Below, piece after piece: positions 4,371 to 24,255 of a stretch of 64,000 nucleotides of DNA (positions are counted from its first letter, which is position 1; each line of letters begins with the position of its first letter). The DNA is taken from positions 1-64,000 of the forward strand of contig JAGWAU010000004.1 of the NCBI GenBank assembly GCA_021296255.1, given 5' to 3'. Both the position numbers and the translations under genes were made by a program. The notes below the pieces were generated by a model. It saw nothing but the letters and a program-made list of their open reading frames with translations. It was not told where the DNA came from and ran no database searches. The stretch is from Alphaproteobacteria bacterium (GTDB taxonomy: Bacteria; Pseudomonadota; Alphaproteobacteria; UBA2966).

Positions 4371-4966
4371 GGTTCGCCACCGAAGACTCAGACGACCCCG
4401 AGTCGTTGGATCCTGAAGACTTTCCCACACTTCAGGCGGTGGCGCGTTTTGCACAAACGGTGCCGCGCGTTCCGTGGTTCCTGCACCTCGGCGAGCCGTT
4501 GACGGAGGAAGTCCGCCGGATCGCCGAGTCTTATGTTCACGCGCTGGGATTTCCCGATTGTGCGATCGCCGTGATCAGCGACTGGGAGGAGGCCGGAGAC
4601 GCGGCGGAGAGTCCCGGATTCGACGACGCCTCCTGGGAGGTCGAGGAGCAGCTTACCGCAGGACTCATGGATGACGCTCTCGCCGTTGTCGAAGAGCAGG
4701 AGCTGGCAACCGCGTTGACACATGCTTCGGCCGCCGGGGGTGACGCCGCGAAGCTGGCGATAGAGGAAGCGGCCGCACTCGCCGGCCACTCCGACCCCGC
4801 GTTTCTCGACGCGGCCGTGGGCGCCGTGACGAAAGCCTGTTATCAGGCGGCCCTGTTACTGGCGGGCGGCGGAGACGAGGATCATGCCGTGGTCTTCAAG
4901 TACAAACTGTTCGAAAGCGGCCGCTGGCCCGTCGGCATCATCGGAAGCACCTTCAACATATTCTGA
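4367..4966 (+). CDS. Conserved-looking hypothetical protein, translationally coupled to the C26 hydrolase
   Basis: I do not recognise this 199-residue family. The ATG overlaps the preceding stop in an ATGA, so the two genes are probably co-translated. The protein is acidic and Ala-rich, with no signal peptide or transmembrane segment. Its centre (residues about 90-150) looks helical, and the C-terminus ends in an aromatic and Gly-rich stretch (LFESGRWPVGIIGSTFNIF). Codon use resembles its neighbours. It faces the next gene tail to tail across a 111-base gap (4967-5077) with no clear terminator. Confidence 0.7.
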   Translation: MRFATEDSDDPESLDPEDFPTLQAVARFAQTVPRVPWFLHLGEPLTEEVRRIAESYVHALGFPDCAIAVISDWEEAGDAAESPGFDDASWEVEEQLTAGLMDDALAVVEEQELATALTHASAAGGDAAKLAIEEAAALAGHSDPAFLDAAVGAVTKACYQAALLLAGGGDEDHAVVFKYKLFESGRWPVGIIGSTFNIF

Positions 4967-5077: not shown

Positions 5078-5524
5078 TCAGGAGTTGAGCGCCCGGGTCA
5101 GCTGGCTGGTCGTCCTCTCGAGACGGGTCGCGAGCTCGCGCATGATTTCGACGGCCATCTGCGGAAATTCTCCCACCATGCGGAAGAACAATTCCTTGGA
5201 AATCTTCAGGACTTCGACGTCCTGATCCGCGATCACCGTAGCCGTTCGCGGGACGTCACAGAGAATGGCGATCTCACCCACGATATCGTTCTCATACACT
5301 TCGGCGACCTTCACATCACCGTTGGGTGTCGAGACCACGATACCCACCGAACCTTTGATGATGATGTAGGCAGAATCGCCTATATCGCCCTGGTGGCAAA
5401 GCTCGGTGCCCTCTCGGAACTTCAGGCGCTCACTCGTGAAAGCCAGGAGCTTGAGTTTCGACGGCTCGATATTCGAGAACAGCGGAATCCGCCGTAGAAG
5501 ATCGACTTCCTCGTTCAAGCTCAT
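5078..5524 (-). CDS. Stand-alone cyclic-nucleotide-binding domain protein
   Basis: This 148-residue protein is a single cNMP-binding domain of the CRP/PKA-R family. The phosphate-binding cassette is complete at residues 83-97 (GEIAILCDVPRTATV), including Arg93, which contacts the cyclic phosphate. The protein ends after the C-terminal helix and has no helix-turn-helix, so it is not a DNA-binding CRP and probably acts through a partner. ATG 5524 is preferred; a TTG at 5548 overlaps the stop of the upstream ABC gene. Either way the two are tightly coupled, which suggests it regulates that transporter. Which nucleotide it binds cannot be told. Confidence 0.88.
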   Translation of the reverse strand: MSLNEEVDLLRRIPLFSNIEPSKLKLLAFTSERLKFREGTELCHQGDIGDSAYIIIKGSVGIVVSTPNGDVKVAEVYENDIVGEIAILCDVPRTATVIADQDVEVLKISKELFFRMVGEFPQMAVEIMRELATRLERTTSQLTRALNS

Positions 5525-5544
5525 TGTTTCCGTCCCACCGGCTG

Positions 5545-8199
5545 TCAAGCGCCGTCAATCAGCTGCCTGAAATATGACCCGCCCCGGTTGAGCTCTTCGA
5601 AAGTGCCTTCTTCCACGATCTTTCCCGATCGCATGACGAGCACATGGTCGAACTCTCTCGCGAGATCCGCCTTGTGCAGTACCCAGACCAACCCGCGATC
5701 GGCGAACTCCTCAAGCAGATTGCTCATTATCAGCCCTTGGCTCGCAGTGTCTAGCGCGGCCGTCGCCTCGGCGAGAAACAGTATGTCGGGTCGCTTTAGA
5801 ATGCCGCGCGCGATTGCAAGCTTCTGACGCTGTCCCGACGACAGTCGCGAACCGGACACGCCGACGTCATACCTCAATCCGACTTCAACGACCGTGTCCC
5901 TGAGGCCGAGCTCCGAGACAACTTCCGTGATCAGCGCGCTGACGCGATCCGTGGCTTCAGGCCGTCCGTAGACGACTCTCCCGAAAATGATGTTGTCCTG
6001 AATGTTCGCCGTACTCGCGTAGGTGTCGAGATCGAGGAATTCCACGGAGTCGCTTGCGTCCTCGGGAAGATCCCTGGCGAACACTTCGCGGGCATCCAGC
6101 AGCTTGGCTTGAATGTCATCGTCGATCATGCCTAGGCGGTGCCGCGCGGGGACGAGTTTGAAGGGCAACGACATGATATGAGAGCGCTCCTCGGCCGATA
6201 GATCTGCCACCCTCTCGCGGTCGATGCGCGTGAGCCGATGCTGGAGCTCGCCCAACTCTTCTGCCGACACGAAGCTGTACTGTTGGAACAACTCGTGATC
6301 GGGCGGTACGTCGGCAAAAATCTCGACCATGGTGGCGGCCGTGTCATATCCGATCTGAAGAATGCGCTCTGTCAGACCGACCTTCTCCAAGACCTCCAGG
6401 ACATAAGGATTTTCGCCAAGCCGGTCCATATCGAAGGCGTCGCCGACGACATTGCCGAATAGAAGGTTTTCTCCGACGGTCGCATTGGCGTTATAGGCGG
6501 ACCGGTCGAACACCTCGATCAAGTCCGCCATGCCTTCGTCATCGGCCAGGCGCTCGCGGAACGCCGAGCGGGCTCGAAGAATCGCCTCCGTCATGTCGCC
6601 GCGTGCCGTGGGATCGACCGTTCCCCTGAGTCCCCATCGGTACACCTCGTCGTCGAGACCTACCATTTCCAAGACGCGAAGTCCCTGTGCCTGAAGGGCC
6701 TCGGGAGTGTCCGCGCCGGCGGACTCCATGTCCACCCAATCGGCCTTGATATCGAGGGTGGTATTGCCGGCAGCCTTCGCTTCATTCTCGTGCCAGCTGC
6801 GTTGGCTCTTGGCATCATCGTCGTATTCGAACTCTCGCATGGGACGATGCTTCAAGCCGTAGAACAGATTGAAGCCCAAGGAGCCGGCGAAGACGTATCC
6901 CTGCTGACCCACATAGGCGAGCCGGCGTCCCGTGATCGCCTCCGGCACACCCGCAAATTCGAGTCCGCCGACCGAGACGCCTCCTCGTGTCGGATACAGA
7001 AGTCGACTCAGTAACTGTACCAATTCGGTCGCGCCGCTTCCCGATTCGCCGACGATGGCAATCCGTGACGGCATCGGTATCTCCAGCGAAACACCGTCGA
7101 CGACGTTGTCCCCGACCTCGTCGGTCAGCGTCAGGTTGGCCGCCGTCAGGTCGCCGGTCAGTGGGTCGATGGACTCCGGTTCCTCCGTCTGCATGCTTTC
7201 GTCCGGCATGCCGACCGGCTCGAACTGGCTGATGACCTGTTCGTATTTGATCTTCGCGTCCTCTCGCCGCTGGTAAAACGCGAGAAGGTCCTTCCAGGGA
7301 GCACCCAAATCCTTGTGCGCCGCGATTGCGGCGACCAGCGTCCCCATTTCCAGCGACCCGGCAATGACGAGGTAACCACCCAGCGAATAGAAGAAGAACG
7401 GCCCCAGTTGTTGGATGAAGTTGTTGATGAACTTGATGACGAACTTCTGGCGGTAGATGCGATACCGCACCTGGAAGATGCTCCCCAGCCGATCGGAAAA
7501 ATCGGCCAGCACGAACTGCGATGTGTCGTGAATGTGGACTTCGGGAACCCCCTGGACCGCCTCGCCGATGCGGTCCGACAGGCGACGCACCAGACGCACC
7601 CTTTCCTTGCCCAGGGCATTCACGCGCATCTGCAAGCGCGGAATCAGGTACAGCTGAATGGGATAGAGCGCGACGGCCGCCGCCGCCATGATCCAGTTCT
7701 GGTAAAACAGAAACGCCAGAATGACGATGAGCGTGCCACCCTGGAACGCCGGCAGCGCGAAGGCCTCGCCGATGAATCCACCAAGAGGCTCTACCTCCGA
7801 GGTGATCATCGGGATGATTTCACCCTGGGACATGTTCTTGAAGGTCGGCTGCGGGAAACGAAGTACCCGACTGAACAGTTGATAACGCAGCCGACGCAGC
7901 ATCCGCTCGCCGGTCAGACCCTGATAGACGTTGATGTAGTACTTGAAGGCCTGGTTGATCAGGACGAGGATCAGAAAGGCCGTGCACAGGAGGAACAGGT
8001 ACCCGGTCTGATCGAAGCGGACCCCGAACAGGTCGACGGGAAAACCTTCCGGATCCCCTTGGATGGCGCCATTGATGATGCGCTTTGGAAGCTCGTAAAA
8101 GGCATACAGGAAGGGAAACGACGAAGCCGCGAGCGCGGTGAGCCAAATCTGCTGCGGCAGACTGTAGCGAATCAGGTATTTGTAGACGGTTTTCTCCAT
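5545..8199 (-). CDS. ABC exporter-type half transporter with degenerate, expanded nucleotide-binding domain
   Basis: This 884-residue protein has an exporter transmembrane domain (residues about 15-330) followed by one nucleotide-binding domain. The Walker A motif reads GESGSGAT, with Ala390 in place of the Lys. Walker B reads ILFLAEATAALD, with Ala810 for the Asp while Glu811 is kept. The signature LSSGQRQ (786-792), a Q-loop region (GQQGYVF) and an H-loop His842 are kept. About 396 residues separate Walker A from the signature, against roughly 110-120 normally. The extra part holds repeated NxxFG...VGL modules at about 444-515, 578-609 and 736-766. Loss of Lys and Asp should weaken ATP and Mg binding, so it may need a partner, act as a pseudo-ATPase, or work differently. 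It is coupled to the cNMP-binding gene downstream. The substrate is unknown. Confidence 0.9.
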   Translation of the reverse strand: MEKTVYKYLIRYSLPQQIWLTALAASSFPFLYAFYELPKRIINGAIQGDPEGFPVDLFGVRFDQTGYLFLLCTAFLILVLINQAFKYYINVYQGLTGERMLRRLRYQLFSRVLRFPQPTFKNMSQGEIIPMITSEVEPLGGFIGEAFALPAFQGGTLIVILAFLFYQNWIMAAAAVALYPIQLYLIPRLQMRVNALGKERVRLVRRLSDRIGEAVQGVPEVHIHDTSQFVLADFSDRLGSIFQVRYRIYRQKFVIKFINNFIQQLGPFFFYSLGGYLVIAGSLEMGTLVAAIAAHKDLGAPWKDLLAFYQRREDAKIKYEQVISQFEPVGMPDESMQTEEPESIDPLTGDLTAANLTLTDEVGDNVVDGVSLEIPMPSRIAIVGESGSGATELVQLLSRLLYPTRGGVSVGGLEFAGVPEAITGRRLAYVGQQGYVFAGSLGFNLFYGLKHRPMREFEYDDDAKSQRSWHENEAKAAGNTTLDIKADWVDMESAGADTPEALQAQGLRVLEMVGLDDEVYRWGLRGTVDPTARGDMTEAILRARSAFRERLADDEGMADLIEVFDRSAYNANATVGENLLFGNVVGDAFDMDRLGENPYVLEVLEKVGLTERILQIGYDTAATMVEIFADVPPDHELFQQYSFVSAEELGELQHRLTRIDRERVADLSAEERSHIMSLPFKLVPARHRLGMIDDDIQAKLLDAREVFARDLPEDASDSVEFLDLDTYASTANIQDNIIFGRVVYGRPEATDRVSALITEVVSELGLRDTVVEVGLRYDVGVSGSRLSSGQRQKLAIARGILKRPDILFLAEATAALDTASQGLIMSNLLEEFADRGLVWVLHKADLAREFDHVLVMRSGKIVEEGTFEELNRGGSYFRQLIDGA

Positions 8200-8229: not shown

Positions 8230-8885
8230 GGGGCTATTCACACTGACGCGCTGCATCGTGGATGAGTGCGAAGTGGACGAAGCTCAGGAACGGCGCATCG
8301 AGGTTCTCGAAGCGGGAGAAGATGCGCCGGAAGCCCTCGAGCCGTCGGAACAGCCGTTCGATTTCGTTGCGCCGCTTGTACGTTTCCCGCCTCTCCGGCG
8401 CGTCGTGCGCCTGTCCGGGCGAGAGCGAGAAGGTCACGGCCGTCCCGGCATCCGCGGCAACCATATGAAGCTTGGTGGTCCAGCCGGCACGGGACCCGCC
8501 GATGGATTGGGGGCCGTTTTTTCTGGCGCCCCCGTCCCGTCGGAATGCCCTTTGACGACCGTGCTGTCCAGAGACGCGGCCTCGAGCTTGATGCGCACGA
8601 TCTGCTCCCGCTGCAACTGCTCGAACACCCGATCGAGCACCCCGCTCTTCGACCAGCGGTTCATGCGCATGTAGATGGTGTGCCAGTTGCCGAAGCGGGC
8701 CGGCAACCCTCGCCACCTGCAGCCATGTTCGGCGACGTACAGGATGGCGTTGAGCACTTGCAGGTTCGACAGGCTGACGTTGCCGCGTTGCACCGGAAGG
8801 TACGGGGCAATGCGCGCGAATTGAGCTTCCGTGATCTCCATCCGCCAACGATAGCACGATTCGCATAATTAGTGTGAACACACCC
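8230..8885 (-). mobile_element. Decayed IS5-family (IS427-like) insertion sequence
   Basis: The element is bounded by imperfect inverted repeats of about 15 bases: GGGGCTATTCACACT at 8230-8244, and on the other strand GGGTGTGTTCACACT at 8885-8871 (12 of 15 match). Inside is a two-frame transposase on the minus strand. At about 655 bp it is shorter than a usual IS427-type element (about 850 bp, from family knowledge), because the middle of the transposase is missing. I could not define a convincing target duplication. It lies between two divergent genes, the ABC exporter and the first glycosyltransferase. Confidence 0.8.
8234..8841 (-). pseudogene. IS5-family transposase, two frames, internally deleted
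   Basis: Frame A runs from ATG 8841 and contains the family's N-terminal region (CRWRGLPARFGNWHTIY) and the first catalytic Asp (LDSTVVKGH). A run of six A (minus strand, 8522-8517) is where the frame must shift by -1 to continue as ARKNGPQSIGGSRAGWTTK, as expected for programmed frameshifting in this group. The second frame then jumps from GQAHDAPE directly to KRRNEIERLFRRL. The stretch that normally carries the second catalytic Asp (DRAYxxD) is absent, so the DDE triad is incomplete and the enzyme should be inactive. Confidence 0.82.
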
Positions 8886-8890
8886 CGGTC

Positions 8891-8930
8891 TCGGCTAGTC
8901 TCGGCTAGTCCCCGCTAGTCTCGGTTGCTG
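8891..8930. repeat. Short tandem repeat of a 10-base unit
   Basis: TCGGCTAGTC occurs twice in a row (8891-8900, 8901-8910), followed by the variants CCCGCTAGTC (8911-8920) and TCGGTTGCTG (8921-8930). It starts just outside the right end of the IS remnant. The remaining bases up to the glycosyltransferase start at 9092 show no gene. No function can be assigned. Confidence 0.7.
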
Positions 8931-9091
8931 CCCGCGCATGCGCTCGCCGGCGGGGTCGTCGAACAGGGGTCCGCCGACGAGCGTCGCCTGCCGACGGTGC
9001 CGGAAAACGCGGAACCGAGGCAACAGGAAAATCGTGGGATCGGCGCAATCTGTGCTTTCTCGCTGGCAATCCGTATGCAAGAGTCGCCGCC

Positions 9092-10329
9092 ATGTCGCGG
9101 GAAACTCACCGTCCCGTGATGGCTTCTCGAGCCGGTCGTGGCGCCCGAGTGTTGATCTATAGCCACGATACTTTCGGGTTGGGCCATCTACGCCGCTGTC
9201 GGACGATCGCCCACTCGCTGGTCGAGAGTCACGAGGATTTATCCGTCCTGATACTTTCCGGCTCCCCCATCATTGGCAGCTTCGATTTTTGGCGTCGCGT
9301 GGACTTCGTCCGCGTGCCGGGCGTCATCAAGCTGCGCAACGGGGAATACACGTCGCTCAATCTTCAGCTGCACCTGGAGGAAACGCTCTCGATGCGGTCC
9401 TCCATCATCGAGCACACCGCCGACATTTTCGATCCCGACGTGTTCATCGTCGACAAAGAACCGCTGGGGCTGCGCGGAGAGATCCGGGGCACCTTGGAAA
9501 TGCTGCGCGCCCGGGGGAAGCGCCTCGTGCTTGGATTGCGGGACGTCCTCGACGATCCGGCCACGCTGTTCATCGAGTGGGAACGCAAAAACGCCCTTCC
9601 GGCGCTTCAGGAGTGCTACGACGAGATCTGGGTCTACGGCTTGCCGCAGATATGCGAACCCCTGGAGGGTCTGCCGCTGACCGGGGACATGCAACGCAAA
9701 ATCACCTATACGGGCTACCTGCCGATTACCGTCCCCAAGACCGCGTTTCCCGCTGCGGCCCCGGAGATCACCAACCGTCCGTTCCTGCTGGTCACGACGG
9801 GCGGCGGCGGGGATGGAGACGTGCTGATCGAATGGGTGTTGCGCGCCTACGAGCGGGAAAAAATGCTGCCCTATCCGGCGTTGCTCGTTTTAGGACCGTT
9901 CCTTCAGCCCGAAAAACAGTCCCAATTCATGTCGCGTGCCGCCAAGCTCGATCGTGTAGAGGCGATCGTCTTCAATCCGCGCATCGAGCGGCTCGAGGAG
10001 AATGCGGTGGGGATCGTCGCCATGGGGGGGTACAACACAAGCGGGCGGTCATCGTTCCACGGACGATTCCGCGTCAGGAACAGCTGATCCGAGCGTCCCG
10101 GGCGCAAGAACTCGGCCTCGTGCGCATGCTCGAGGACGACGGTCATATGGATCCGGCGGCGATGGCCCGGGCACTGCGGGATCTGCCGCGCCAACCGAAG
10201 CCTTCGGAAACGATCGTCCCCGGTTTGCTGGAAGGTCTCATCAACGTGAATCGGTTGATCAAGCCCTGGCTCGATCAACGGCCGACACTTGAAGTCGCAG
10301 ATACCGTTACGGCGTTTCGCCCCGCCTAA
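9092..10329 (+). pseudogene. COG4671-type glycosyltransferase, frameshifted near the C-terminus
   Basis: This is a MurG/GT28-like predicted glycosyltransferase. The N-terminal domain has the FGLGHLRRC loop, and the second domain has the LLVTTGGGGDGD strand and the GGYNT donor-site motif. From ATG 9092 the frame is open to 10087 but goes wrong right after GGYNT (about 10038). The true continuation (KRAVIVPRTIPRQEQLIR and onward) is in another frame, from about 10039 to 10329. The paralogue at 13410 has about nine residues between GGYNT and its AVVVP strand, so several codons plus one base appear lost here. Unless this is a sequence error, the encoded protein lacks its last 90 or so residues. 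It heads the glycan cluster; the GT4 gene starts 26 bases later. Confidence 0.8.
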
Positions 10330-10355: not shown

Positions 10356-11624
10356 ATGAAGACGGTCGCCTTCATCCTGAAGGGCTATCCACGCCTCTCC
10401 GAGACGTTCATCGCCCAGGAAATCCTCTCCCTGGAACGTCTGGGCCTGGCCATCGAAATCGTCAGCCTTCGCCGCCCTACCGACGTTTCGACGCACCCGA
10501 TCCATCGCGAAATCGGCGCTCCGGTGACCTACCTCCCGGAGTATCTGTATCAGGAGCCGTTGCGGGTTCTGCGCGCCCTCACGGCGGTCGGACGCCGCCG
10601 CCGGTTCTGGGCCGCGTTTTCGATCTGGGGGAAAGATTTCATTCGCGACCCGACCCCGAACCGGATCCGCCGGTTCGGCCAAGCCGCCGTCTTGGCACAC
10701 GGAATACCGCCTCGGGTGAGCCAATTGCACGCACACTTCCTTCACACCCCGGCCTCGGTCGCCCGCTATGCCTCGGCGCTGACGGGACTGGCTTGGAGTC
10801 TCTCGGCTCACGCCAAGGATATTTGGACGACGCCGGCATGGGAGAAACGAGAAAAGCTCGCCGAATGCGATTGGGCCGTCACCTGCACCGAAACGGGATT
10901 CCATCACCTTGAGGGCCTCGCACCGCGGGACCGCCTGCATCTCGTCTATCACGGCTTGGACCTGGACCGGTTTCCGGCCCCTCCGGCCCCCGCCTCGGGT
11001 CGGGACGGTTCCGACGCGGACCGCCCGGTCATCCTGCTCTCCGTCGGCCGAGCAGTCGAAAAGAAAGGCCTCGACACGCTCGTCGAGGCACTCATGCGGT
11101 TGCCGACGCATATCGCGTGGCGGCTTGTCCATATCGGAGGCGGACCCCGGCTGGATCACCTGAGGGAAATGGCGACACGGTCGGGGCTGGCCGACCGAAT
11201 TCAGTGGCTCGGTCCTCAACCGCAAGAGGTCGTTCTGGAGAATTACAGATTGGCGGATCTGTTCATCCTACCCAGCGTTATCGCCAAGGACGGCGACCGC
11301 GACGGACTTCCCAACGTCCTACTCGAAGCACAAAGCCAGGGCCTTCCCTGCATCGCCGGCAAGCTGCCGGGGATTGCCGAGCTGATCTCCGATGGAACGA
11401 CCGGTGTCCTGGTCGAACCCGGCGACACCGCGGCGCTTGCCAACGCGATCTCAAGCCTCGCACAGGATCCCCAGCGTCGTCGGCAGTTGGGCTCCGCCGC
11501 ACTGAGTTGCGTCCGCAAACGGTTTGCCCTGACCGAGCACATTGGGCGGCTCGCGTCATTGTTTGGGTTGCCGCCCGTGAACGAGGACGCCGCCGCTTGC
11601 GAATCGCGTTTTACGCGCCGCTGA
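10356..11624 (+). CDS. Glycosyltransferase family 4 protein
   Basis: This is a GT-B fold retaining glycosyltransferase of 422 residues. The N-terminal acceptor domain starts MKTVAFILKGYPRLSETFI, a form common in GT4 enzymes of polysaccharide clusters, and includes the ATGC-like LHAHFLHTPASVARY stretch. The C-terminal donor domain has SVGRAVEKKGLDTLVEA and the catalytic region DGLPNVLLEAQSQGLPCIA, equivalent to the E-x7-E motif. No signal peptide is seen; it should act on the cytoplasmic face of the membrane. The last 28 bases overlap the next gene. The sugar donor and acceptor are unknown. Confidence 0.88.
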   Translation: MKTVAFILKGYPRLSETFIAQEILSLERLGLAIEIVSLRRPTDVSTHPIHREIGAPVTYLPEYLYQEPLRVLRALTAVGRRRRFWAAFSIWGKDFIRDPTPNRIRRFGQAAVLAHGIPPRVSQLHAHFLHTPASVARYASALTGLAWSLSAHAKDIWTTPAWEKREKLAECDWAVTCTETGFHHLEGLAPRDRLHLVYHGLDLDRFPAPPAPASGRDGSDADRPVILLSVGRAVEKKGLDTLVEALMRLPTHIAWRLVHIGGGPRLDHLREMATRSGLADRIQWLGPQPQEVVLENYRLADLFILPSVIAKDGDRDGLPNVLLEAQSQGLPCIAGKLPGIAELISDGTTGVLVEPGDTAALANAISSLAQDPQRRRQLGSAALSCVRKRFALTEHIGRLASLFGLPPVNEDAAACESRFTRR

Positions 11625-12790
11625 AAGCGCCGACCCACCCGGCGCCGTCGGGTGATCGCCGCATGGCCCGGCAGCTCATTTCGGCGTTGCGGTTCGCAGG
11701 GCACGCCGTCGACGTCGCGTCGACGTTCAGAAGTTTCGATGGGGATGGGAATCCCGAACGGCAAGATACCATTCGGGACGCCGCCGAGGCCGAGGTCGGC
11801 CGGATCGTTCACAACTATCGAGCCGCCGCCGAAAGTCAAAGGCCGGAGGTCTGGTTCACCTATCACCTGTACTACAAGGCTCCTGATTGGATCGGACCCA
11901 GGGTGTCGCGGACCCTCGGCCTGGGATACGTCATAGCCGAGGCGAGCCACGCGCCCAAGCGCGCGAGTGGACCATGGGCGTTGGGTCATGAGGCGGTGAC
12001 AAACGCCCTCGGTGCGGCGGATTCCGTACTGGCTCTCACGGAGCGGGACATTCCCTGCGTTCGATCCCTGCTGCATGCACGGGCTCGGTTGCTTCATCTG
12101 CCGCCGTTCCTCGATCCCGCAGCGGAAGTCGACGGCGTGACCGGCGATGAGGATCGGGACTCCTGTCGAGACGCTCTCGCCAAACGATACGCTCTCGACG
12201 GCACCAAGAGCTGGCTCCTGGCCGTGGCGATGATGCGCTCGGGCGACAAGCTCCAATCCTACCGCCACCTATCGCGCGCATTGGCTGCATTGCCGGGAGA
12301 CGACTGGCAACTCGTCATCGTGGGCGACGGCGGCGCGCGGGCGGACGTGGAAGCCGAATTCTCTCCACTCGGCTCGACCGGTCGAGGCGGGCGCGTCGCG
12401 TGTTTGGGCGAACTCGCGGCGCCCGGATTGCAACGCGTCTATGCGGCATGTGATATCCTGGTTTGGCCCGCCATCAACGAAGCCTACGGAATGACGCCGC
12501 TCGAAGCGCAGGCAGCGGGACTGGTGGTGGTTGCCGGTGATGCCGGTGGTGTCCGCGAGGTTGTTCGTGATGGCGGAACCGGCGTCCTCGTTGATCCGGA
12601 CGATTGCAACGCCTTCTCCGAGGCTGTGCGTAGCCTCCTTGACGATCCCGTCCGGCGGCGGGAACTCGGACGCCGGGGACGGAGATTCGTCCGGGAGGAG
12701 CGGTCCCTGGCCGCGGCCAGCGGCACCATCGATAGAGCCGTCGTTCACGCCGCCGAGACGCGCCACGACGCAGCACGGCGAGCTTCATGA
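11597..12790 (+). CDS. Glycosyltransferase family 4 protein
   Basis: This is a second GT4 enzyme of about 397 residues. No ATG fits the beginning of the fold (LRIAFYAPLKAP). The TTG at 11597, preceded by GAGG at 11583-11586, gives a start exactly there and overlaps the previous gene by 28 bases. The donor domain has LLAVAMMRSGDKLQSY and the E-x7-E-like segment NEAYGMTPLEAQAAG, followed by GGVREVV and GTGVLVDPDD. The acceptor domain is distinct from that of the neighbouring GT4, so it is not a simple duplicate. Its stop overlaps the next start (12787). Confidence 0.85.
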   Translation: MRIAFYAPLKAPTHPAPSGDRRMARQLISALRFAGHAVDVASTFRSFDGDGNPERQDTIRDAAEAEVGRIVHNYRAAAESQRPEVWFTYHLYYKAPDWIGPRVSRTLGLGYVIAEASHAPKRASGPWALGHEAVTNALGAADSVLALTERDIPCVRSLLHARARLLHLPPFLDPAAEVDGVTGDEDRDSCRDALAKRYALDGTKSWLLAVAMMRSGDKLQSYRHLSRALAALPGDDWQLVIVGDGGARADVEAEFSPLGSTGRGGRVACLGELAAPGLQRVYAACDILVWPAINEAYGMTPLEAQAAGLVVVAGDAGGVREVVRDGGTGVLVDPDDCNAFSEAVRSLLDDPVRRRELGRRGRRFVREERSLAAASGTIDRAVVHAAETRHDAARRAS

Positions 12791-13413
12791 CCGCGCTCGC
12801 GCTGATACGCCACGGATCCACCGTCTTCACGGAGACCCGGCGGATTCAGGGCCTGCGCGATGTGCCCTTGTCCGGGACGGGGTGCGCGAAGGTCCAGAGC
12901 TACGACGTCCCGTCCGAGTTGACAGGCTTTGCCTGGATTTCGAGTCCTCTCTCTCGCGCGCGGGAAACCGCACGGATCCTGTGCGGGAAGCCGGTTCCAA
13001 CCGATTCCCGCCTGATCGAAATGGACTGGGGGGCTTGGGAAGGCCGTACCCTGAAGAATCTCCGTGCCGATCTTGGGAAGGCCATGCGGGAGAATGAGGA
13101 CAAGGGACTGGACTTTTGTCCGGACGGGGGCGAGAGCCCCCGCCAAGTCCTGCGCCGGGTTCAGCCGCTGCTGGCCGAGATCGGCGCTGCACGCCGAGAT
13201 ACGGTGGCGGTTACCCATCAAGGCGTCATTCGGGCAATCTTCGCGGCGGCCCTCGATTGGGACATGGTGGGCCCGCCGCCGCACAAGCTGGACTGGGCCT
13301 GCATCCATGTGTTCGATGTAGACGATCGCGGCGTCTCCCGGATATCGGCCCTCAATATCCCCATGGCACCGGCCGAAAAGCCGGTGCCGACGGAGAACTG
13401 GCGAACACGGTGA
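12787..13413 (+). CDS. Histidine phosphatase family protein (phosphoglycerate-mutase-like)
   Basis: This 208-residue protein has the full catalytic set of the histidine phosphatase superfamily: the RHG motif at residues 8-10 (phospho-His), the acid in EMDWGAWEG, the SSPLSRARETA arginine segment and the second His in AVTHQGVIRA. It is probably a small-molecule phosphatase rather than a glycolytic mutase, since it lacks the longer mutase loops. It lies between glycosyltransferases with four-base overlaps on both sides. It may remove phosphate from a glycosylated intermediate, as GpgP does in mycobacteria; this is an analogy only. Confidence 0.85.
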   Translation: MTALALIRHGSTVFTETRRIQGLRDVPLSGTGCAKVQSYDVPSELTGFAWISSPLSRARETARILCGKPVPTDSRLIEMDWGAWEGRTLKNLRADLGKAMRENEDKGLDFCPDGGESPRQVLRRVQPLLAEIGAARRDTVAVTHQGVIRAIFAAALDWDMVGPPPHKLDWACIHVFDVDDRGVSRISALNIPMAPAEKPVPTENWRTR

Positions 13414-14567
13414 ACAGGCCGCGTATCCTTTTCTACGTACAGCACCTCGTGGGCATCGGTCACTTCAAGCGCGCCGCTGCCATTTCGCGAGCCGCTGCGG
13501 CGAGAGGCATGGGCGTAACCTTGGTGTCGGGCGGTCAAGCGCCTACCGAGATCGATCTCGGAGCCGCAAAGCTCATGCAACTGCCGGCGGTCCATGCAAC
13601 GGAAGACGACTACGCCACGCTCCTCGTGGAAGACGGGTCACAGGCGGACGATGTCCTGCGCCGTCGCCGAGCCGGTCTCGTGCTGGAGGAATTCGAGCGA
13701 TGCCAACCGGACGTACTCGTCGTCGAGCTGTTTCCCTTCGGGCGCCGCCAAATGAAGTTCGAGTTGCTCCCCCTGCTGCGAGCCGCCCGGGATGCGCGAC
13801 CTCGCCCCGTCATAGTCTCATCGATACGCGACATCCTGGTCGGGCAATCGAGGGCCGGCCGTGCGGATGAAGTGTGCGGCCATCTCGAAACGTACTTCGA
13901 TCACGTACTCGTTCACGCCGACCCTTCCCTTGTCACCTTGGGAGCGACGTTTCCCCAAGAGAACCGAATCAAGAAGATGGTGACGTATACGGGATATGTC
14001 GCTGACCGGATCGCCGAAGAGAACGGCGAAGACGGTACGAACGAGGTTGTCGTTTCGGCCGGGGGCGGTGCGGTGGGCCGGCGTCTGTTGGAAGTGGCGT
14101 CGACGTGCAGACCGCTTACCGCGTTGCACGATCATATCTGGCGCCTACTCGTGGGCTCACGCGGCTCGGCAGGATCGCTCGCCTCTCGACTGGGTCGGAA
14201 GGATTCCGGCGTGATCGTGGAGGCCGCCCGATCCGATTTCCCAGCGCTGCTTTCGCGGGCCGCCGTGTCCGTCAGCCAAGGCGGATACAACACCATTGTC
14301 GAAATTCTTCGGGCGAAGACGCCTGCCGTCGTCGTGCCGTTCGCAACCGGAGTCGAGACGGAACAAACGATCAGAGCGGAACTGCTGCGCAAGCGGAGGC
14401 TGATCGAAGTCGTGCCCGAGGGGGAGCTCTCGCCGGAGAGCTTGGCGAAAGCCGTCGATTCCGCCTACCGCGCGGGACCCGGAGACGCGGACATCGATCT
14501 GTCGGGCGCGAATGCGACGGCGGATCTTCTGGAGGCATGGGCGCGGCAGACAGCGCGGAATGCATGA
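13410..14567 (+). CDS. COG4671-type predicted glycosyltransferase (intact paralogue)
   Basis: This is a second MurG-like glycosyltransferase of about 385 residues, paralogous to the broken gene at 9092. GTG 13410 overlaps the preceding TGA and starts the fold directly (NRPRILFYVQHLVGIGHFKR). The GIGH loop, the VVVSAGGGAVG strand and the SQGGYNTIVEILRAKTPAV donor-binding segment are all present and in frame, so this copy should be active. It likely transfers an activated sugar at the inner membrane. The acceptor is not known. The deacetylase gene follows after 15 bases. Confidence 0.85.
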   Translation: MNRPRILFYVQHLVGIGHFKRAAAISRAAAARGMGVTLVSGGQAPTEIDLGAAKLMQLPAVHATEDDYATLLVEDGSQADDVLRRRRAGLVLEEFERCQPDVLVVELFPFGRRQMKFELLPLLRAARDARPRPVIVSSIRDILVGQSRAGRADEVCGHLETYFDHVLVHADPSLVTLGATFPQENRIKKMVTYTGYVADRIAEENGEDGTNEVVVSAGGGAVGRRLLEVASTCRPLTALHDHIWRLLVGSRGSAGSLASRLGRKDSGVIVEAARSDFPALLSRAAVSVSQGGYNTIVEILRAKTPAVVVPFATGVETEQTIRAELLRKRRLIEVVPEGELSPESLAKAVDSAYRAGPGDADIDLSGANATADLLEAWARQTARNA

Positions 14568-14582
14568 GCACGGTATGAACCG

Positions 14583-15350
14583 ATGGAACCCTGGTCCGCA
14601 TTGACGGATGAGCTGGATGCTTGGTCGGTTGCCGGGAAGACGGCGACGATGTGGTGGCGGGACGATGACGCGACATGCCCTACCCCGGCGCTGGCGCGTT
14701 TGCTCGACACCGCGGCAACGCACGGCGTGCCGCTTTGCCTCGCCGCCATCCCCAACCTCGTACGGGAAGAGCTGCTGACGCTGCTGGAAAGAGATGTGAA
14801 CGTCGCTGTCGCCGTTCACGGCGTGAGCCACAAGAACTTCGCGGCCGCCGGCGAGAAGAAATGCGAGCTCGCGGAGGCCCGGTCCCCCCACGCGATGGCG
14901 GACGAACTCGTCGAAGGGCGGGAGAAGCTCGTCGCCGTCGCGGGCCGCAGAACGATCCCGGTCCTGGTGCCGCCGTGGAACCGCGTTTCGCGAGCACTGG
15001 TCCCCCTGTTGCCGGGACTCGGCTTTCAGGGGCTTTCGACGTATGGCGACCGTCGCGCGGGCGCGCCAACCCCTGGGTTACGGCAAGTGAATTGCCACAT
15101 CGATCCCATCGACTGGCGCGGCAGCCGGGACTTCATCGGTGTCACAGGCGTGCTGGAGCAGCTGATCGGGCATCTCGCGCGGCGGCGCCTGGGAAACGCC
15201 GACCCGGCCGAGCCGACGGGATTGCTGACGCATCACGCGGTCTGGTCCGACGCGGCGTTCGCGTTTCTGCAAGAGCTCCTCGTTCGCACCGGAAGGCATC
15301 CTGCGGCTCGCTGGCTGCCTCCGCAGGTCGCGTTCGGGTTGGAGCCTTGA
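14583..15350 (+). CDS. Polysaccharide deacetylase family protein (CE4-like)
   Basis: This 255-residue protein has the features of the NodB/CE4 fold in a divergent form: an Asp cluster (WWRDDDA, about residues 24-30), the metal-binding HGVSHKN (H-x3-H) and a VPPWNRVS motif. These are expected to hold a divalent metal and remove N- or O-acetyl groups from a glycan. There is no signal peptide, so it may act on a cytoplasmic lipid-linked or nucleotide-sugar intermediate. Its TGA overlaps the next TTG start. The position inside a glycosyltransferase operon supports a glycan role. Confidence 0.78.
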   Translation: MEPWSALTDELDAWSVAGKTATMWWRDDDATCPTPALARLLDTAATHGVPLCLAAIPNLVREELLTLLERDVNVAVAVHGVSHKNFAAAGEKKCELAEARSPHAMADELVEGREKLVAVAGRRTIPVLVPPWNRVSRALVPLLPGLGFQGLSTYGDRRAGAPTPGLRQVNCHIDPIDWRGSRDFIGVTGVLEQLIGHLARRRLGNADPAEPTGLLTHHAVWSDAAFAFLQELLVRTGRHPAARWLPPQVAFGLEP

Positions 15351-15853
15351 GCACCCACCGGTATCCGGCGTCGAGCCTGGCCGCGGATCATTGCCGCGCC
15401 GGCATCGGCCTTCTCGTGACCGGGGGGCCGCTCGTGTTCCTGGGCCCGATCAGCGGCCTCATCTACATCCTGGCGCCTTTGGCGGTTCTCTTCGGCATCT
15501 TCGCGGTTCGGACACTGGTTCGTCAGCTGACCACATACGAAGCGGCGGAGACGGGGTTTCGGGTGTCGGGGCCGATCGGGTTTGAACTCGCGTGGTCTTA
15601 TTTTTCGCAAATGCCCCTGAGGTACTTTACGACCCGCCGCGACCGCGGTCGCGGCTGGATGCAGCTCCGAATTCGCGCCACTACCCGCACCGGCCGCCGG
15701 TACTCGACTTTGGGGGGGTTTTCCGACATTGTTCCGCGCGCCGCCAAGGAAGCGGCGCGGCACGATATCGCCTTGAGCGATGCCACGCTGGACAATATGC
15801 GGGCATTGGGCATTGCAGGGCTGTCGGAGAGGACAAGAATACCGACCGTTTGA
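15347..15853 (+). CDS. Small membrane protein of unknown function
   Basis: I do not recognise this 168-residue protein. The TTG at 15347 overlaps the deacetylase stop (TTGA). An upstream extension in the same frame runs antiparallel through the deacetylase gene and is not credible. Residues about 17-55 form two adjacent hydrophobic helices (GIGLLVTGGPLVFLG; LIYILAPLAVLFGIFAV). The rest is a basic soluble domain predicted to be mostly strand, then helix. Its last base is the first base of the next start (TGATG). Confidence 0.65.
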   Translation: MSTHRYPASSLAADHCRAGIGLLVTGGPLVFLGPISGLIYILAPLAVLFGIFAVRTLVRQLTTYEAAETGFRVSGPIGFELAWSYFSQMPLRYFTTRRDRGRGWMQLRIRATTRTGRRYSTLGGFSDIVPRAAKEAARHDIALSDATLDNMRALGIAGLSERTRIPTV

Positions 15854-17745
15854 TGGGAACCGTCCTACTCGTTCGCGATCTCAAGGTTGAATTTCATCTA
15901 CCCGAAGGCGCCATTAAGGCCGTTGACGGTGTGTCTTTCCGGATTCCAGAGGGGAAGACCGTTGCGCTCGTGGGCGAATCGGGATCGGGAAAGACGGTCG
16001 TTTCCCAAGCCATCACGGGCATCCTTCCCAAGCCTGCCCGTATCGCGGCCGGTGAGATTTTGTTTTTCGACCCGGAGAAGCAAGGACACTTCGTCGACGT
16101 CGCCAAGTTGAAGCCCGACGGACGGGCGATGCGGGATCTGAGAGGAGGCCGCATCTCCATCATTTTCCAGGAACCCATGACATCCTTGTCTCCGCTTCAC
16201 ACGATCGGTAATCAGATCGGCGAGGCGACACGCCTGCACACGCGTTGCAACGCCTCCGTCGCAAGCGACATGACGGTCGAGATGCTGCGATTGGTGGGCT
16301 TTCCCGATCCGCCAAAGGCATTGCACACCTATCCGTTCGAACTGTCCGGAGGACTGCGCCAACGCGCCATGATCGCCATGGCGCTGGTGTGTCGGCCCGC
16401 CATCCTGATCGCTGACGAACCGACGACCGCGCTGGATGTGACCATCCAGGCACAGATCTTGAAGTTGATGCAGGATCTGCAAGCCGAACTCGGCATGGCC
16501 ATTCTGATGATCACCCACGATCTCGGCGTGGTCGCCAATGTGGCGGACGAAATCGTGGTGATGTATCACGGAAAGGTCATGGAAGCAGGGACTCTCCGTG
16601 ACATCTTCGACGACCCCCGGCACCCGTACCTTCAGGCTCTCATGCGCGCCGTTCCCCGGTTCGATATGAAGGCGGGCGAACGGCTTGTTCCGTTGCGCGA
16701 GATCAAGGCGGAAGGCGGCCGGCTTCTCGAGAACAGGGTGCCGTGGCCGGATACCGAGGCAGCGCGCGCGCCGTTGCTGTCGGTGAAGGATCTGAGCAAG
16801 AGATTCACGACTCGAAAGACCTCGGTGTTCGGCTCGAAGCCCGGCGGCAGCGTGCTGGCCGTGGACGACGTGAGCTTCGATATCCACAGGGGCGAGTGCC
16901 TGGGACTGGTCGGCGAGTCGGGCTGTGGCAAGACGACAACCAGCAAAATCATCATACGGGCCGTCAGCCCGGGTGAGGGAACCGTCACGTTCAACGACCG
17001 GGGATCGCTGGTCGACGTGTTGAAGCTCAGCGGTCGGGAGCTGTTCGATTTCCGGCGGAGGGTCCAGTACATCTTCCAGGACCCGTTCAGTTCCCTGAAC
17101 CCGCGCATGACGGTGTTCGACATCATCAGCGAGCCGCTGGCCATTCACGGGATCGAGGATCAGGAGCAACGTGCCGCGCGCGTCCGCGAGCTCATGGGTC
17201 TCGTCGGCCTCGACGTGCGCTACCTGCGCCGCTATCCCCACAGTTTCTCGGGCGGCCAGCGTCAGCGAATCGGGATCGCGCGGGCACTTGCGCTTCAACC
17301 CGATTTGCTCATCTGCGACGAACCCGTCTCGGCCCTGGATGTCTCGGTGCAGGCGCAGGTGCTCAATCTTCTAAAGGATTTGCAGAAGGAGCTCGGTCTC
17401 ACCTACCTGTTCATTTCGCACGATCTGGCGGTTGTCGATTACGTAGCCGACAGGATCGCCGTCATGTGCAAGGGCCGGCTGATCGAGATGGCGCCCCGCG
17501 ACGCGCTGCTGCGGGATCCTGTACATCCCTATACCAAAGCGTTATTGGCCGCCGTGCCCAAGGCGGATCCGGAGAGTCGCTTGGACCTGACCGCGCTGAT
17601 GGCAGGCCGTGCCTCGGATCCGTCCGCTTGGTCGCCACCGTTTACCGTGGACGGAGAGACCAGGCCTCGTCTCGCTCACCTCGGCGACGATCACTACGTC
17701 CGGGCCGCCGTCGACGATTCGGACGCGCGTCGGCTACTGGCATGA
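15853..17745 (+). CDS. ABC importer ATPase with two fused nucleotide-binding domains (YejF/DppDF-like)
   Basis: This 630-residue cytoplasmic ATPase drives peptide or nickel/peptide-type import. Domain 1 has Walker [12 protein letters not shown], signature [12 protein letters not shown] and Walker [13 protein letters not shown]. Domain 2 (from about residue 312) has [23 protein letters not shown] and [12 protein letters not shown]. Both carry the oligopeptide-type C-terminal extension ([15 protein letters not shown]). All catalytic motifs are intact, unlike the exporter at 5545. It overlaps both neighbours, placing it in one transcript with the glycan genes upstream and the importer genes downstream. 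Confidence 0.92.
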
Positions 17746-19640
17746 TCTGGACAATCCAACGATCCGTGTCCGCTGCTGCGTTGGCGGTATGCTTGGCCTC
17801 GCCGGCCCTGGCCATCGCGCTGCGGGAAACGCCTTCTCTCGCGGAGGCCGTCGCGTCGGGAGCTCTGCCGCCCGTCGCGGAGCGCGTTCCACTGACCCCC
17901 TTGGTCGTGAATCTGGCAAGCGACTCCAAGAAGCCGGGCCGGCATGGCGGAATCCTGAACATGCTGATCGGCCGTCCCAAGGACATCCGCCTCCTCGTGG
18001 TATACGGCTACGCGCGACTCGTCGGTTACGACGGCCGGTTTCAGCTGCAACCCGACATTTTGGAAAGCTTCGACGTCCGGGAAGGCCGCATATTCACGTT
18101 CAGGCTGCGTGAGGGTCACAAATGGTCCGACGGCCATCCCTTCACGGCGGAAGACTTCCGATACTACTGGGAAGACGTTGCCAACAACCCAAGCCTTGCT
18201 CCGTCGGGTCCGCCGCGCGACATGATCGTTGCGGGGAAACCCCCGCGATTCGAGGTCATCGACGATCACGCCGTGAAATACACTTGGCCGGCGCCCAACC
18301 CCTTCTTCCTGCCGCGCATCGCCGGGGCGTCACCCCTGTTCATCTACCGCCCGGCTCACTACCTGAAGCAGTTTCACCCCCGCTATGTCGGCGAAGCGGC
18401 AGCAGCCCGCCGCGCCGAAGAGGAGGGACAGCGAAGCTGGGCCGCGCTGCACAACAAGCGGGACAACCTTTACAAGTTCGACAATCCGGATCTGCCGACG
18501 CTGCAGCCCTGGCGGAACACGACCCGTCCACCGGCGCAGCGGTTTGCCGCCAAGCGCAATCCCTTCTTCCACCGCGTCGACACACGGGGTCGTCAGCTTC
18601 CGTACATCGACGACGTCGTGCTGGTGCAGACGGACGGAAGGCTGATCTCCGCCAAAACCGGAGCCGGCGAGTCGGACCTGCAGTCGCGGAACATCTCGTT
18701 CGACGACTACACGTTCCTCAAGGACGGTTCCGAACGCAACGGGTATGACGTGCATTTGTGGCGCACCGCGAAAGGGGCGCACCTCGCGTTGTTCCCGAAT
18801 CTTAACCACAACGATCGGGTCTGGCGGGAGGTGATTCGGGACCGGCGATTCCGGGAGGCCCTGAGTCTCGCGATCGACCGTCCGTTGATCAATCAGGCGC
18901 TCTATTTCGGACTCGCCTTGGAGCATCACAACACAGTGCTGCCACGGAGCCCTCTCTACGACGAGACGTACGCGCGAACCGAGTTCGATATCGAGAAGGC
19001 GAACAGGCTGCTGGACGAGATGGGCCTGACGGAATGGGACGACAACGAAACCCGCCTGTTGCCGGACGGGCGGCCCATTCACGTCATCGTCGAGACGGCC
19101 GGCGAGGACACCGAGCAAACGGACGTCCTCGAGCTGATCCGGGATGACTGGGCCAAGATCGGGATCCGGCTGTTCACCAAACCGTCCCAACGGGAAGTCT
19201 TCCGCAACCGCATCTTTTCCGGCGAGACCCTGATGTCGATCTGGTTCGGGCTGGAGAATGGGCTCGCCACGGCCGACACGAGCCCGCAGGAGTTGGCCCC
19301 GACGAGTCAGCTACAATTGCAGTGGCCGAAATGGGGCCAGTACTTTGAGACCAAGGGCAAGTCGGGAGAGCCGCCGGACATGGCGGTCGCCACCGAATTG
19401 GCGCGACTCAACGAGGAATGGTTGAGCGCCCCCACGACCCGGAAACGCGAACGCATTTGGCAGAGAATGTTGGGGATTCATCGCGACATGCTTTTCTCCA
19501 TCGGAATAGTTTCCGGCGTGCTGCAACCGGTCGTCGCCAGGAGGGGGTTGATGAACGTGCCCGCCAGGGCCGTCTACAACTGGGATCCCGGTGCTCACTT
19601 CGGGGTCTATCGGCCCGACACCTTCTGGTTCGCAAAGTGA
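17742..19640 (+). CDS. Peptide-type ABC transporter substrate-binding protein (YejA-like)
   Basis: This is a large SBP family 5 protein of 632 residues with an N-terminal signal peptide (VSAAALAVCLASPALA). The family features GRIFTFRLREGHKWSDGHPFTAEDF and RFREALSLAIDRPLINQ are present. The length and the long insertions are closer to YejA-type proteins than to DppA. No lipobox Cys is evident after the hydrophobic core, although a Cys lies inside it. It should bind a peptide or peptide-like ligand in the periplasm. The ATG overlaps the ATPase stop (ATGA). Confidence 0.88.
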   Translation: MIWTIQRSVSAAALAVCLASPALAIALRETPSLAEAVASGALPPVAERVPLTPLVVNLASDSKKPGRHGGILNMLIGRPKDIRLLVVYGYARLVGYDGRFQLQPDILESFDVREGRIFTFRLREGHKWSDGHPFTAEDFRYYWEDVANNPSLAPSGPPRDMIVAGKPPRFEVIDDHAVKYTWPAPNPFFLPRIAGASPLFIYRPAHYLKQFHPRYVGEAAAARRAEEEGQRSWAALHNKRDNLYKFDNPDLPTLQPWRNTTRPPAQRFAAKRNPFFHRVDTRGRQLPYIDDVVLVQTDGRLISAKTGAGESDLQSRNISFDDYTFLKDGSERNGYDVHLWRTAKGAHLALFPNLNHNDRVWREVIRDRRFREALSLAIDRPLINQALYFGLALEHHNTVLPRSPLYDETYARTEFDIEKANRLLDEMGLTEWDDNETRLLPDGRPIHVIVETAGEDTEQTDVLELIRDDWAKIGIRLFTKPSQREVFRNRIFSGETLMSIWFGLENGLATADTSPQELAPTSQLQLQWPKWGQYFETKGKSGEPPDMAVATELARLNEEWLSAPTTRKRERIWQRMLGIHRDMLFSIGIVSGVLQPVVARRGLMNVPARAVYNWDPGAHFGVYRPDTFWFAK

Positions 19641-19697
19641 CTGCGGTCGATGCCGGCCGGCCAATGATTGGTTGAGGTGGTTCGGGCGGGATCGGCG

Positions 19698-20723
19698 ATG
19701 TTCACATACTTTGTCCATCGAGTATTGATCATGATCCCCACGCTGCTGGCGATCAGCGTGTTGATCTTCATCATCATCCAGCTGCCCCCGGGCGACTATC
19801 TTTCGAACCAGATCCAGGAACTGAAAAGCCAAGGCGATACCGCCGCGCTGGCAAAGGTCGAATTTCTGCGCCATCAGTACGGACTGGACCGCCCGCTCGT
19901 CGAGCAATACGCGGTGTGGCTTGGCGTCTGGCCGGGTCCGAACGGGTTCTCCGGCCTCTTGCAAGGTGATCTCGGCTATTCCTTCGAGTTCGACCTGCCG
20001 GTGACCGACGTCGTCGGAGACCGGTTGTTGCTGTCCTTTATCGTGTCCTTCGCCACGATCGTCTTCACCTGGGTGGTATCGTTCCCCATCGGCGTGTATT
20101 CCGCGACCCATCAATACAGCATCGGCGATCACTCACTGACCTTTCTCGGATTCATCGGTCTGGCGACGCCCAATTTCCTGCTCGCGCTGGTGCTGATCTA
20201 TTTCGCCAACGTCACTTTCGGCACGTCGATCGGCGGCCTGATGGATCCCCGATACCTCGACCAGCCATGGTCGTGGGCAAAGTTCGTTTCCGTTCTCGAA
20301 CACCTGTGGATCCCTGTCATCGTCATCGGAACATCTGGCACTGCTGGCATGATTCGGAGGTTGCGCGCCAACCTGCTCGACGAGCTGCAAAAGCAATATG
20401 TGGTCACGGGCCGGGCAAAGGGCCTTCCGCCGCTCCGCCTCCTGATCAAGTATCCGTTGCGCGTCTCCCTCAACCCCTTCATCTCGGACATCGGAAACCT
20501 TCTGCCGCAGGTTATTTCGGGAGCCGCCATCGTATCCGTGGTTCTGTCGCTACCGACGACAGGCCCCATGCTGGTTCACGCATTGCAGTCCCAGGACCAG
20601 TATCTCGCGGGGTCGTTCCTGATGTTCCTGTCCCTGCTGACGGTCATCGGCATGTTCCTCTCCGATGTAGCGTTGGCCGCGCTGGATCCGCGAATCCGTC
20701 TTGGCGAGCAGGTGGTTCGATGA
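19698..20723 (+). CDS. ABC transporter permease (YejB/DppB-like)
   Basis: This 341-residue inner-membrane protein has the DppB-type architecture: an N-terminal helix (LIMIPTLLAISVLIFIII), a periplasmic loop, then a core with the EAA-like motif YVVTGRAKGLPPLRLL. ATG 19698, 57 bases after the substrate-binding gene, fits the first helix; an in-frame TTG at 19668 adds ten polar residues. It pairs with the next permease to form the channel. Confidence 0.9.
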   Translation: MFTYFVHRVLIMIPTLLAISVLIFIIIQLPPGDYLSNQIQELKSQGDTAALAKVEFLRHQYGLDRPLVEQYAVWLGVWPGPNGFSGLLQGDLGYSFEFDLPVTDVVGDRLLLSFIVSFATIVFTWVVSFPIGVYSATHQYSIGDHSLTFLGFIGLATPNFLLALVLIYFANVTFGTSIGGLMDPRYLDQPWSWAKFVSVLEHLWIPVIVIGTSGTAGMIRRLRANLLDELQKQYVVTGRAKGLPPLRLLIKYPLRVSLNPFISDIGNLLPQVISGAAIVSVVLSLPTTGPMLVHALQSQDQYLAGSFLMFLSLLTVIGMFLSDVALAALDPRIRLGEQVVR

Positions 20724-23412: not shown

Positions 23413-24249
23413 TCAGGAGATCTTTCGCAGCCACAGGCTCGATTCGAACGCGCCCGGAAGAACGGGCAGATGCCGCACAACACTCGCTTCGAAGATGGCC
23501 GGCATCGCAGTCGTCACGTAGTGACTCGAAAACACCGTCTCGTAACCCCCGAGAACGAGTTGCGTCACGGCGGCCTGCTCGTTATAGCCGCGCCAGCCCC
23601 ACTCGGCCGGGTAGTCGTCAGGTAGGAACACGTCATGGAAGTGTATCCAAATGCCTTTGGGGAGCGGGGGAAGTACGCGATTCAGGATGACGTCGACATC
23701 GCTGCCCGGCATCAGCACGTGACTCGAGTCGATCACCAGGAAATCACCCGATTGAAGGGCGTCAAACGGTCCAGTGCCGGCCTCCTGGACCGTCGCCTCT
23801 AGGAACCGGACGTCGAGACCGGACAGCGTAGCGCGCGGGCTTGGATCGACCGCGGTGACGGTACACGGGAACCCGCCGTCGGAAACGGCCCGGGCGATGA
23901 AGCGTGTGGAGTGGCCCGACCCCACCTCGACCACCCGCGACGGTCGCTCGTGACGGAGCAGGGTGTAAAGGATCGCGGCGTCGAGGCGGGGAAACCAGTC
24001 CTGTTCCCATCGCGGCGCGGGGGCGGGCTCGGTGCCGATGCCATTCAGGTCGTCGCCGAAGGATTCGGCGAGCGAAAGGATGTGCCCGAACGTCGCTTCA
24101 CGGTCGGCGAGGTGTCGGTGAATCGGTTCGTACGGAGCGTTGGCGCCCGGATGCGGCAGGTGCCCGGCATAACGGTGGGGGATGAAGAAGCCGCGCTTCG
24201 CGAGCCCCAGGACCGTCATCAAGCCGAGCCGCAGCGCTCGAAATTTCAT
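23413..24249 (-). CDS. Class I SAM-dependent methyltransferase
   Basis: This 278-residue protein has SAM motif I as VVEVGSGHSTRFIARA, the acidic loop in TAVDPSPRA and an IDSSH segment resembling the Methyltransf_24 type. An N-terminal region of about 70 residues (basic, with a short hydrophobic start) precedes the fold. The methyl acceptor is unknown. It starts six bases after the MBL-fold gene stop and so is probably co-transcribed with it. Confidence 0.82.
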   Translation of the reverse strand: MKFRALRLGLMTVLGLAKRGFFIPHRYAGHLPHPGANAPYEPIHRHLADREATFGHILSLAESFGDDLNGIGTEPAPAPRWEQDWFPRLDAAILYTLLRHERPSRVVEVGSGHSTRFIARAVSDGGFPCTVTAVDPSPRATLSGLDVRFLEATVQEAGTGPFDALQSGDFLVIDSSHVLMPGSDVDVILNRVLPPLPKGIWIHFHDVFLPDDYPAEWGWRGYNEQAAVTQLVLGGYETVFSSHYVTTAMPAIFEASVVRHLPVLPGAFESSLWLRKIS

Positions 24250-24255
24250 GCGGAA

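Follow-up and report, generated by a model that had tools for sequence, protein, structure and literature searches.

A family of MsbA-like proteins lacking a complete ATP site and paired with a cyclic-nucleotide-binding protein in Alphaproteobacteria

To judge from its motif residues, a family of alphaproteobacterial ABC exporter-like proteins has very probably lost normal MgATP hydrolysis: a complete ATP site was found in 0 of 122 full-length members. The member analyzed here is a pseudo-ABC exporter of 884 residues, encoded on the minus strand at 5545–8199 of a 64,000-nucleotide stretch of DNA from an alphaproteobacterium of lineage UBA2966 (the window). It consists of an ABC-exporter transmembrane domain (TMD; residues 1–330, 7210–8199) and a degenerate nucleotide-binding domain (NBD) with an insert. 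This reading frame and its motifs are as the original prediction, made from the sequence alone, had placed them. Walker A (residues 384–391, 7027–7050) reads GESGSGAT and Walker B (residues 806–817, 5749–5784) reads ILFLAEATAALD, with the core ILFLAEAT. Both substitutions that had been predicted, Ala390 in Walker A (codon 7030–7032) and Ala810 in Walker B (codon 5770–5772), are borne out, leaving the protein with neither K[ST] nor the Walker B Asp. The Q-loop region is YVGQQGYVF (residues 429–437, 6889–6915), the signature is LSSGQ (residues 786–790, 5830–5844), and the D-loop Asp817 and the switch His842 (5674–5676) are kept; all of these features lie on the minus strand.

Pfam matched PF00664 at 83.5 bits over residues 70–292, and the PF00005 match was split in two; at 37 and 30 bits, these pieces make it one of the weakest of the 82 PF00005 matches in its own genome. 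The top NCBIfam match was the MsbA equivalog TIGR02203 (214.8 bits vs. a cut-off of 602), and none of the best 25 NCBIfam matches reached its cut-off. An AlphaFold2 model, built from an 80-sequence family alignment (pLDDT 87.8, pTM 0.82; poor at TMD residues 163–176 and 294–299), aligned over its full length to exporter half-transporters. Residues 344–882 of the model superimposed on the ComA NBD (3vx4) over 240 of 240 residues (rmsd 1.8 Å, Z 30); the insert thus interrupts an otherwise complete NBD. Like the MsbA and Sav1866-type (type IV) exporters, the window protein is a one-polypeptide half-transporter with a PF00664 TMD and a complete NBD fold; unlike them, its family combines the missing ATP site with an NBD insert of about 300 residues and a cyclic-nucleotide-binding partner.

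The insert went unnoticed in the original prediction. Walker A and Walker B of the window protein are 420 residues apart because about 300 residues are inserted between the Q-loop and the signature, and all 122 full-length members carry the insert, with 367–448 residues between Walker A and the signature. Its core (about residues 451–720, 6040–6849, minus strand) matched no Pfam family at E 1 and gave no Foldseek match to solved structures under E 0.001; we therefore rejected a known domain, the only matches being weak ones to the helical subdomain of ABC NBDs. It is nevertheless confidently folded, with a mean pLDDT of 95.3 when modeled alone. Profile comparison revealed three copies of a stretch made up of the Q-loop segment and the beginning of the helical subdomain: the native unit A (residues 432–525, 6625–6906), unit B (YNANATVGENLLFG; residues 540–620, 6340–6582) and unit C (YASTANIQDNIIFG; residues 700–777, 5869–6102), all on the minus strand (hhalign A/B 1e-6, A/C 1.5e-6, B/C 1.9e-17). 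Among the aligned chains, each of the 15 best structural matches of the insert was an ABC NBD segment in the region of the helical subdomain; at a weak Z of 4.5–5.7, these serve as corroboration of the Q-loop repeats. In ABC exporters, the Q-loop and helical subdomain contact the coupling helices of the TMD.

The loss of both the Walker A Lys and the Walker B Asp had been called rare. For comparison, 58 further NBD stretches were drawn from 50 loci of this genome, and every readable position in them was canonical (Lys 56/56, Ser/Thr 56/56, Walker B Asp 57/57, Glu 57/57), so the double loss is far from chance; it is, however, a trait of the family rather than an isolated event. Local gene decay or a sequence error might be suspected from the surroundings, since the frame of a neighboring glycosyltransferase-like gene is broken and a transposase remnant lies upstream. 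We regard this explanation as close to negligible, because homologues from close relatives, aligned at Walker A and B, lack the same residues. Two congeneric species carry orthologues, 87% identical, with GESGSGTS/FLSEA in one and GEPGSGAT/FLAEA in the other, and none of the three species has a basic residue at the Lys position. Between the window species and these two congeners, dN/dS was 0.04 (with dS near saturation) and 0.15, and in the closer of these two comparisons the insert was also constrained (dN/dS 0.17). By these rates the gene, including its insert, is under purifying selection, and together with the confident fold and the family-wide pattern they rule out decay or error.

Of 61 genomes around the window genome, 21 have a homologue, as do 146 of 387 genomes drawn from the class Alphaproteobacteria; homologues also lie on many plasmids of Rhizobium, Sinorhizobium, Phyllobacterium, Azospirillum and roseobacters, and Rhizobium etli CFN42 has one in RHE_RS24195. 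In a phylum-wide draw, all full-length matches fell within the same class, with one NBD-less protein outside it; a full-length member was also present in one metagenome-assembled genome labeled gammaproteobacterial. We found no literature on this family or its ABC gene itself. By position, the Sinorhizobium meliloti member is probably SMb20813, which one paper names as the S. meliloti msbA homologue. SMb20804/05, which concern NCR peptide sensitivity, could not be tied to the pseudo-ABC and cyclic-nucleotide module. On pSymB of S. meliloti 1021 (L077, 13962–16713), the pseudo-ABC gene lies in two pieces in different frames, and most other listed S. meliloti records have it in one piece. One relative (G006; L026, L027) has, besides a full copy, a pair of overlapping truncated copies on further contigs, close to another lineage (G004); this assembly has a contamination of 7%.

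Across the 122 full-length members, no motif of the ATP site is consistently retained. Walker A K[ST] is present in 6 and LSGGQ in none. Position 390 is K in 60 members, R in 44 and A in 10, and position 391 is E in 50 and D in 37, with Ser or Thr in only 13, so that [KR][ED] replaces K[ST] in 76 members and an acid occupies the place of the Mg-binding Ser/Thr (7027–7032 in the window). This acid may form a salt bridge within the P-loop. At position 810 we counted N 63, D 22, S 21 and A 6, and at position 811, E 60, D 19 and Q 12. Twenty-three members retain the Q-loop Gln and 37 the switch His; Gly is the fourth signature residue in 16, and the A-loop aromatic is mostly lost, like the Q-loop Gln and the signature. 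The D-loop Asp is kept in 110, and the Walker A glycines largely persist. Lys, Ser/Thr, Asp and Glu co-occur in three members, each without the remaining motifs. The original emphasis on a kept signature, Glu811 and His842 is therefore right for the window protein, whose LSSGQ is near-canonical, but does not carry over to the family, in which the signature is SxG in 8 of 122 members and SGG in none, and the Glu and His are kept in 60 and 37. Similarly, the loss of the Lys is confirmed here, but its replacement by Ala or Thr occurs only in this genus and on a few further branches.

We asked how often these residues had changed, using a tree built from TMD columns alone. Along this tree, the Walker A position switched between basic and non-basic 9 times, the Ser/Thr changed 8 times, the Asp 17, the Glu 21 and the His 20 times. 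Such repeated change is what would be predicted if the constraint on ATP chemistry had been relaxed while the function of the protein was maintained. It is hard to reconcile with a normal ATPase that uses unconventional residues, perhaps supplied by the insert. That explanation could draw on the invariant residues in and beside the insert (R544, N578, R704 and N736) and on the catalytic Glu kept in half of the members, but the invariant residues of the family are mostly located in the TMD or the repeat motif, and we consider this explanation very unlikely. The suggestion that the window protein is a pseudo-ATPase is thus strengthened and extended beyond this one protein by the absence of complete sites and by purifying selection.

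A second possibility is that ATP is bound but not hydrolyzed, and that the protein is gated by ATP or ADP, in the manner of the degenerate site in TM287/288 or CFTR, with a cyclic nucleotide tuning the response. Lys or Arg at position 390 in 104 of 122 members and the largely kept Walker A glycines are consistent with this idea, and degenerate sites of other exporters do bind ATP (PMC7756269). On the other hand, the Mg-binding Ser/Thr is mostly Glu or Asp, the Walker B Asp is lost in 100 of 122 members, the A-loop aromatic, the Q-loop Gln and the signature are each absent from most members, and all three species of the window genus dispense with the basic residue. We think ATP gating rather unlikely on balance.

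The pseudo-ABC gene is nearly always accompanied by a protein that binds cyclic nucleotides, of which cAMP is an example. In the window it is encoded at 5078–5548 on the minus strand (PF00027, 76.8 bits), with a likely ATG start at 5522–5524, 20 nt past the ABC stop codon. Its phosphate-binding cassette, GEIAILCDVPRTAT (5237–5278, minus strand), has the ligand-contacting Glu and Arg intact. Such a partner is present in 113 of 121 loci, in 100 of them as a separate downstream gene in the same orientation (median gap 22 bp) and in 13 as a C-terminal fusion, which gives proteins of about 1040 residues. Some of the other 8 have long ABC proteins that may carry a divergent cyclic-nucleotide-binding domain. 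In 115 sequences of the cyclic-nucleotide-binding protein, the glycine of the cassette never varies, and the ligand Arg and Glu are conserved in 99% and 92%, respectively. Read from its residues, then, the second-messenger site is intact across the family while the ATP site is not. NHLP bacteriocin export systems (TIGR03796, TIGR03797 and TIGR03896) likewise join an ABC exporter to a cyclic-nucleotide-binding domain, but the matches of the window protein to these families were far under the cut-offs and left the insert uncovered.

The original prediction also allowed that the protein might need an ABC partner, and this part finds no support in the loci. Heterodimeric exporters such as TM287/288, TAP and MsRv1273c/72c resemble the window protein in having lost ATP-site residues in an NBD. 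In those systems, however, one site is canonical and the partner is known, whereas a homodimer of the window protein would have two defective sites and no partner gene is conserved: another exporter-type ABC gene lies within about 7 kb at only 1 of 121 loci, and the partner that is conserved is the cyclic-nucleotide-binding protein. For the working site of known heterodimers, the degenerate half still has to provide an intact signature, and in most members of this family the signature is broken. Among exporters, a heterodimer with a single degenerate site is a common arrangement (PMC7756269), and canonical sites are present in other exporters of this genome. Even so, we consider it decidedly unlikely that the protein pairs obligatorily with an ordinary half-transporter from another locus that supplies the one working ATP site.

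Genes of a putative cell-surface glycan pathway recur beside the family, mostly upstream and divergent. In the window, this plus-strand cluster comprises a glycosyltransferase-like gene (8987–10326), which has no Pfam match and is named from its counterparts in Rhizobium etli and R. leguminosarum; two family 4 glycosyltransferases (10356–11624 and 11570–12790, the latter with an uncertain start); a histidine phosphatase superfamily protein (12787–13413); a family 28-type glycosyltransferase (13410–14567); and a polysaccharide-deacetylase-like protein (14583–15350; PF01522, slightly under the cut-off). The first of these genes is one intact frame in relatives (e.g. L197 and L198); in the window it is broken near 10039, by a real change or an assembly error. 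Where relatives have a divergent promoter region of about 130–150 bp, the window has a transposase-like remnant in two frames (8234–8881, minus strand), followed by a tract of 10-bp repeats (8888–8927). Main genes of the glycan cluster are present at 66–81 of 121 loci (glycosyltransferases at about 80) and the deacetylase at 57; a glycosyltransferase cluster within 7 kb is absent at about a third of loci. On this evidence, the odds that the family acts with a cell-surface glycan are roughly even.

Beyond the glycan cluster, the window encodes a peptide-type ABC ATPase with two canonical NBDs (15592–17745, plus strand; the start is uncertain, probably near 15898), a peptide-type solute-binding protein with two permeases (17742–21898, plus strand), a class III adenylate/guanylate cyclase (PF00211; 21961–23391, minus strand), and a methyltransferase with an MBL-fold hydrolase (23413–25122, minus strand). 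A cyclase resembling this one is close in only 7 of 121 loci, which makes its link weaker; the supply of cyclic nucleotide may be distant. On the other side of the pseudo-ABC gene, a conserved hypothetical protein with no Pfam match (4403–4966, plus strand) occurs near the family in 11 loci, and the FtsK, LolA-like and C26 peptidase genes that adjoin it recur in about 23–25 loci. Genes of the kinds that follow the glycan cluster, among them cyclases, a methyltransferase and an MBL hydrolase, reappear in a stretch of about 30 kb on pRL11 of R. leguminosarum/johnstonii 3841, and in part on R. etli p42e and Phyllobacterium pT1293a.

Published phenotypes bear on the pRL11 region. We mapped the pRL numbering by counting genes from repA of pRL11; this count placed pRL110043 at the MFS gene RL_RS29975, in agreement with its published description. 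By the same count, pRL110066 would be the cyclase RL_RS30090 and pRL110071 the MBL hydrolase RL_RS30115. Both are among the 14 loci of a transposon screen for nickel and cobalt tolerance (PMC6266702), and a pRL110071 mutant attached to roots at 20–33% of the wild-type level (PMC11406972). These phenotypes concern the region and the neighboring genes, not the ABC gene itself.

A TMD of this kind is maintained without any NBD in a set of relatives of about 400–440 residues, which are 40–45% identical to the TMD, have an extra N-terminal stretch and end where the NBD would start (L080, 9773–11086; L181, 6940–8181; L182, 6801–8000; L183, 6831–8030; L184, 1–1149). They are encoded in copper-resistance loci, beside copper oxidase, cytochrome c or P-type ATPase genes; the first four lie among copper-type genes and L184 is a short contig. 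In trees, they group with the pseudo-ABC family and not with ordinary exporters (support 99). A quick tree nested them inside the family, but a branch inside it was not upheld, as a tree with the full-length family as a clade was at least as likely (AU p 0.82). These proteins are a separate parallel to SbmA/BacA (SLiPT), in which an ABC-exporter TMD works without an ATPase. SbmA, a proton-driven transporter with an ABC-type TMD (PMC13316013), sets a precedent for another energy source, an option that the original prediction had also raised; it lacks an NBD and presumably derives from an ancestor resembling YddA, whereas the window protein keeps a folded pseudo-NBD. The SbmA/BacA Pfam family was not among the matches of the window protein at E 0.001, nor among those of three NBD-less relatives at E 1.

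Taken together, our preferred reading, to which we give a probability of about 0.5, is an MsbA-fold protein whose NBD serves as a non-hydrolytic regulatory clamp, controlled by cyclic nucleotide through its partner and acting in a glycan pathway. The scaffold would be a type IV exporter, presumably a homodimer, in which loss of ATP hydrolysis is a family trait. The pair of pseudo-NBDs, with the enlarged Q-loop and helical subdomain, would form the clamp; the cyclic-nucleotide-binding protein, fed by class III cyclases, would dock on the NBD end and open or close the TMD. Of these steps, control by cyclic nucleotide through the partner is somewhat favored by our analysis. The TMD would then pass or flip a substrate of the adjacent glycan pathway, driven by the gradient of the substrate itself or by a proton gradient as in SbmA. 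The basic residue at the Walker A Lys position in 104 of 122 members argues against this mechanism, since nucleotide or phosphate may still be bound without hydrolysis; the three members that retain Lys, Ser/Thr, Asp and Glu also count against it. More tentatively, we suggest that the family as a whole may be a cyclic-nucleotide-gated, non-ATPase kind of ABC protein, in which the NBDs, enlarged by the tripled Q-loop/helical segment, have turned into a signal-operated gate, and that the family and its NBD-less copper branch might be intermediates between a primary ABC pump and a secondary transporter or channel.

The use of ATP defines ABC transporters, yet this family, present in more than a third of the sampled alphaproteobacterial genomes, has no complete ATP site, and on this evidence the current annotation of its genes as 'ABC transporter ATP-binding protein' is misleading. 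With its tripled coupling segment and nearly obligatory cyclic-nucleotide sensor, the family would be an uncommon example, from nature, of an ABC machine switched over to a different input, and would tie cyclic-nucleotide signaling to cell-surface glycans and perhaps, in rhizobia, to root attachment and metal tolerance.
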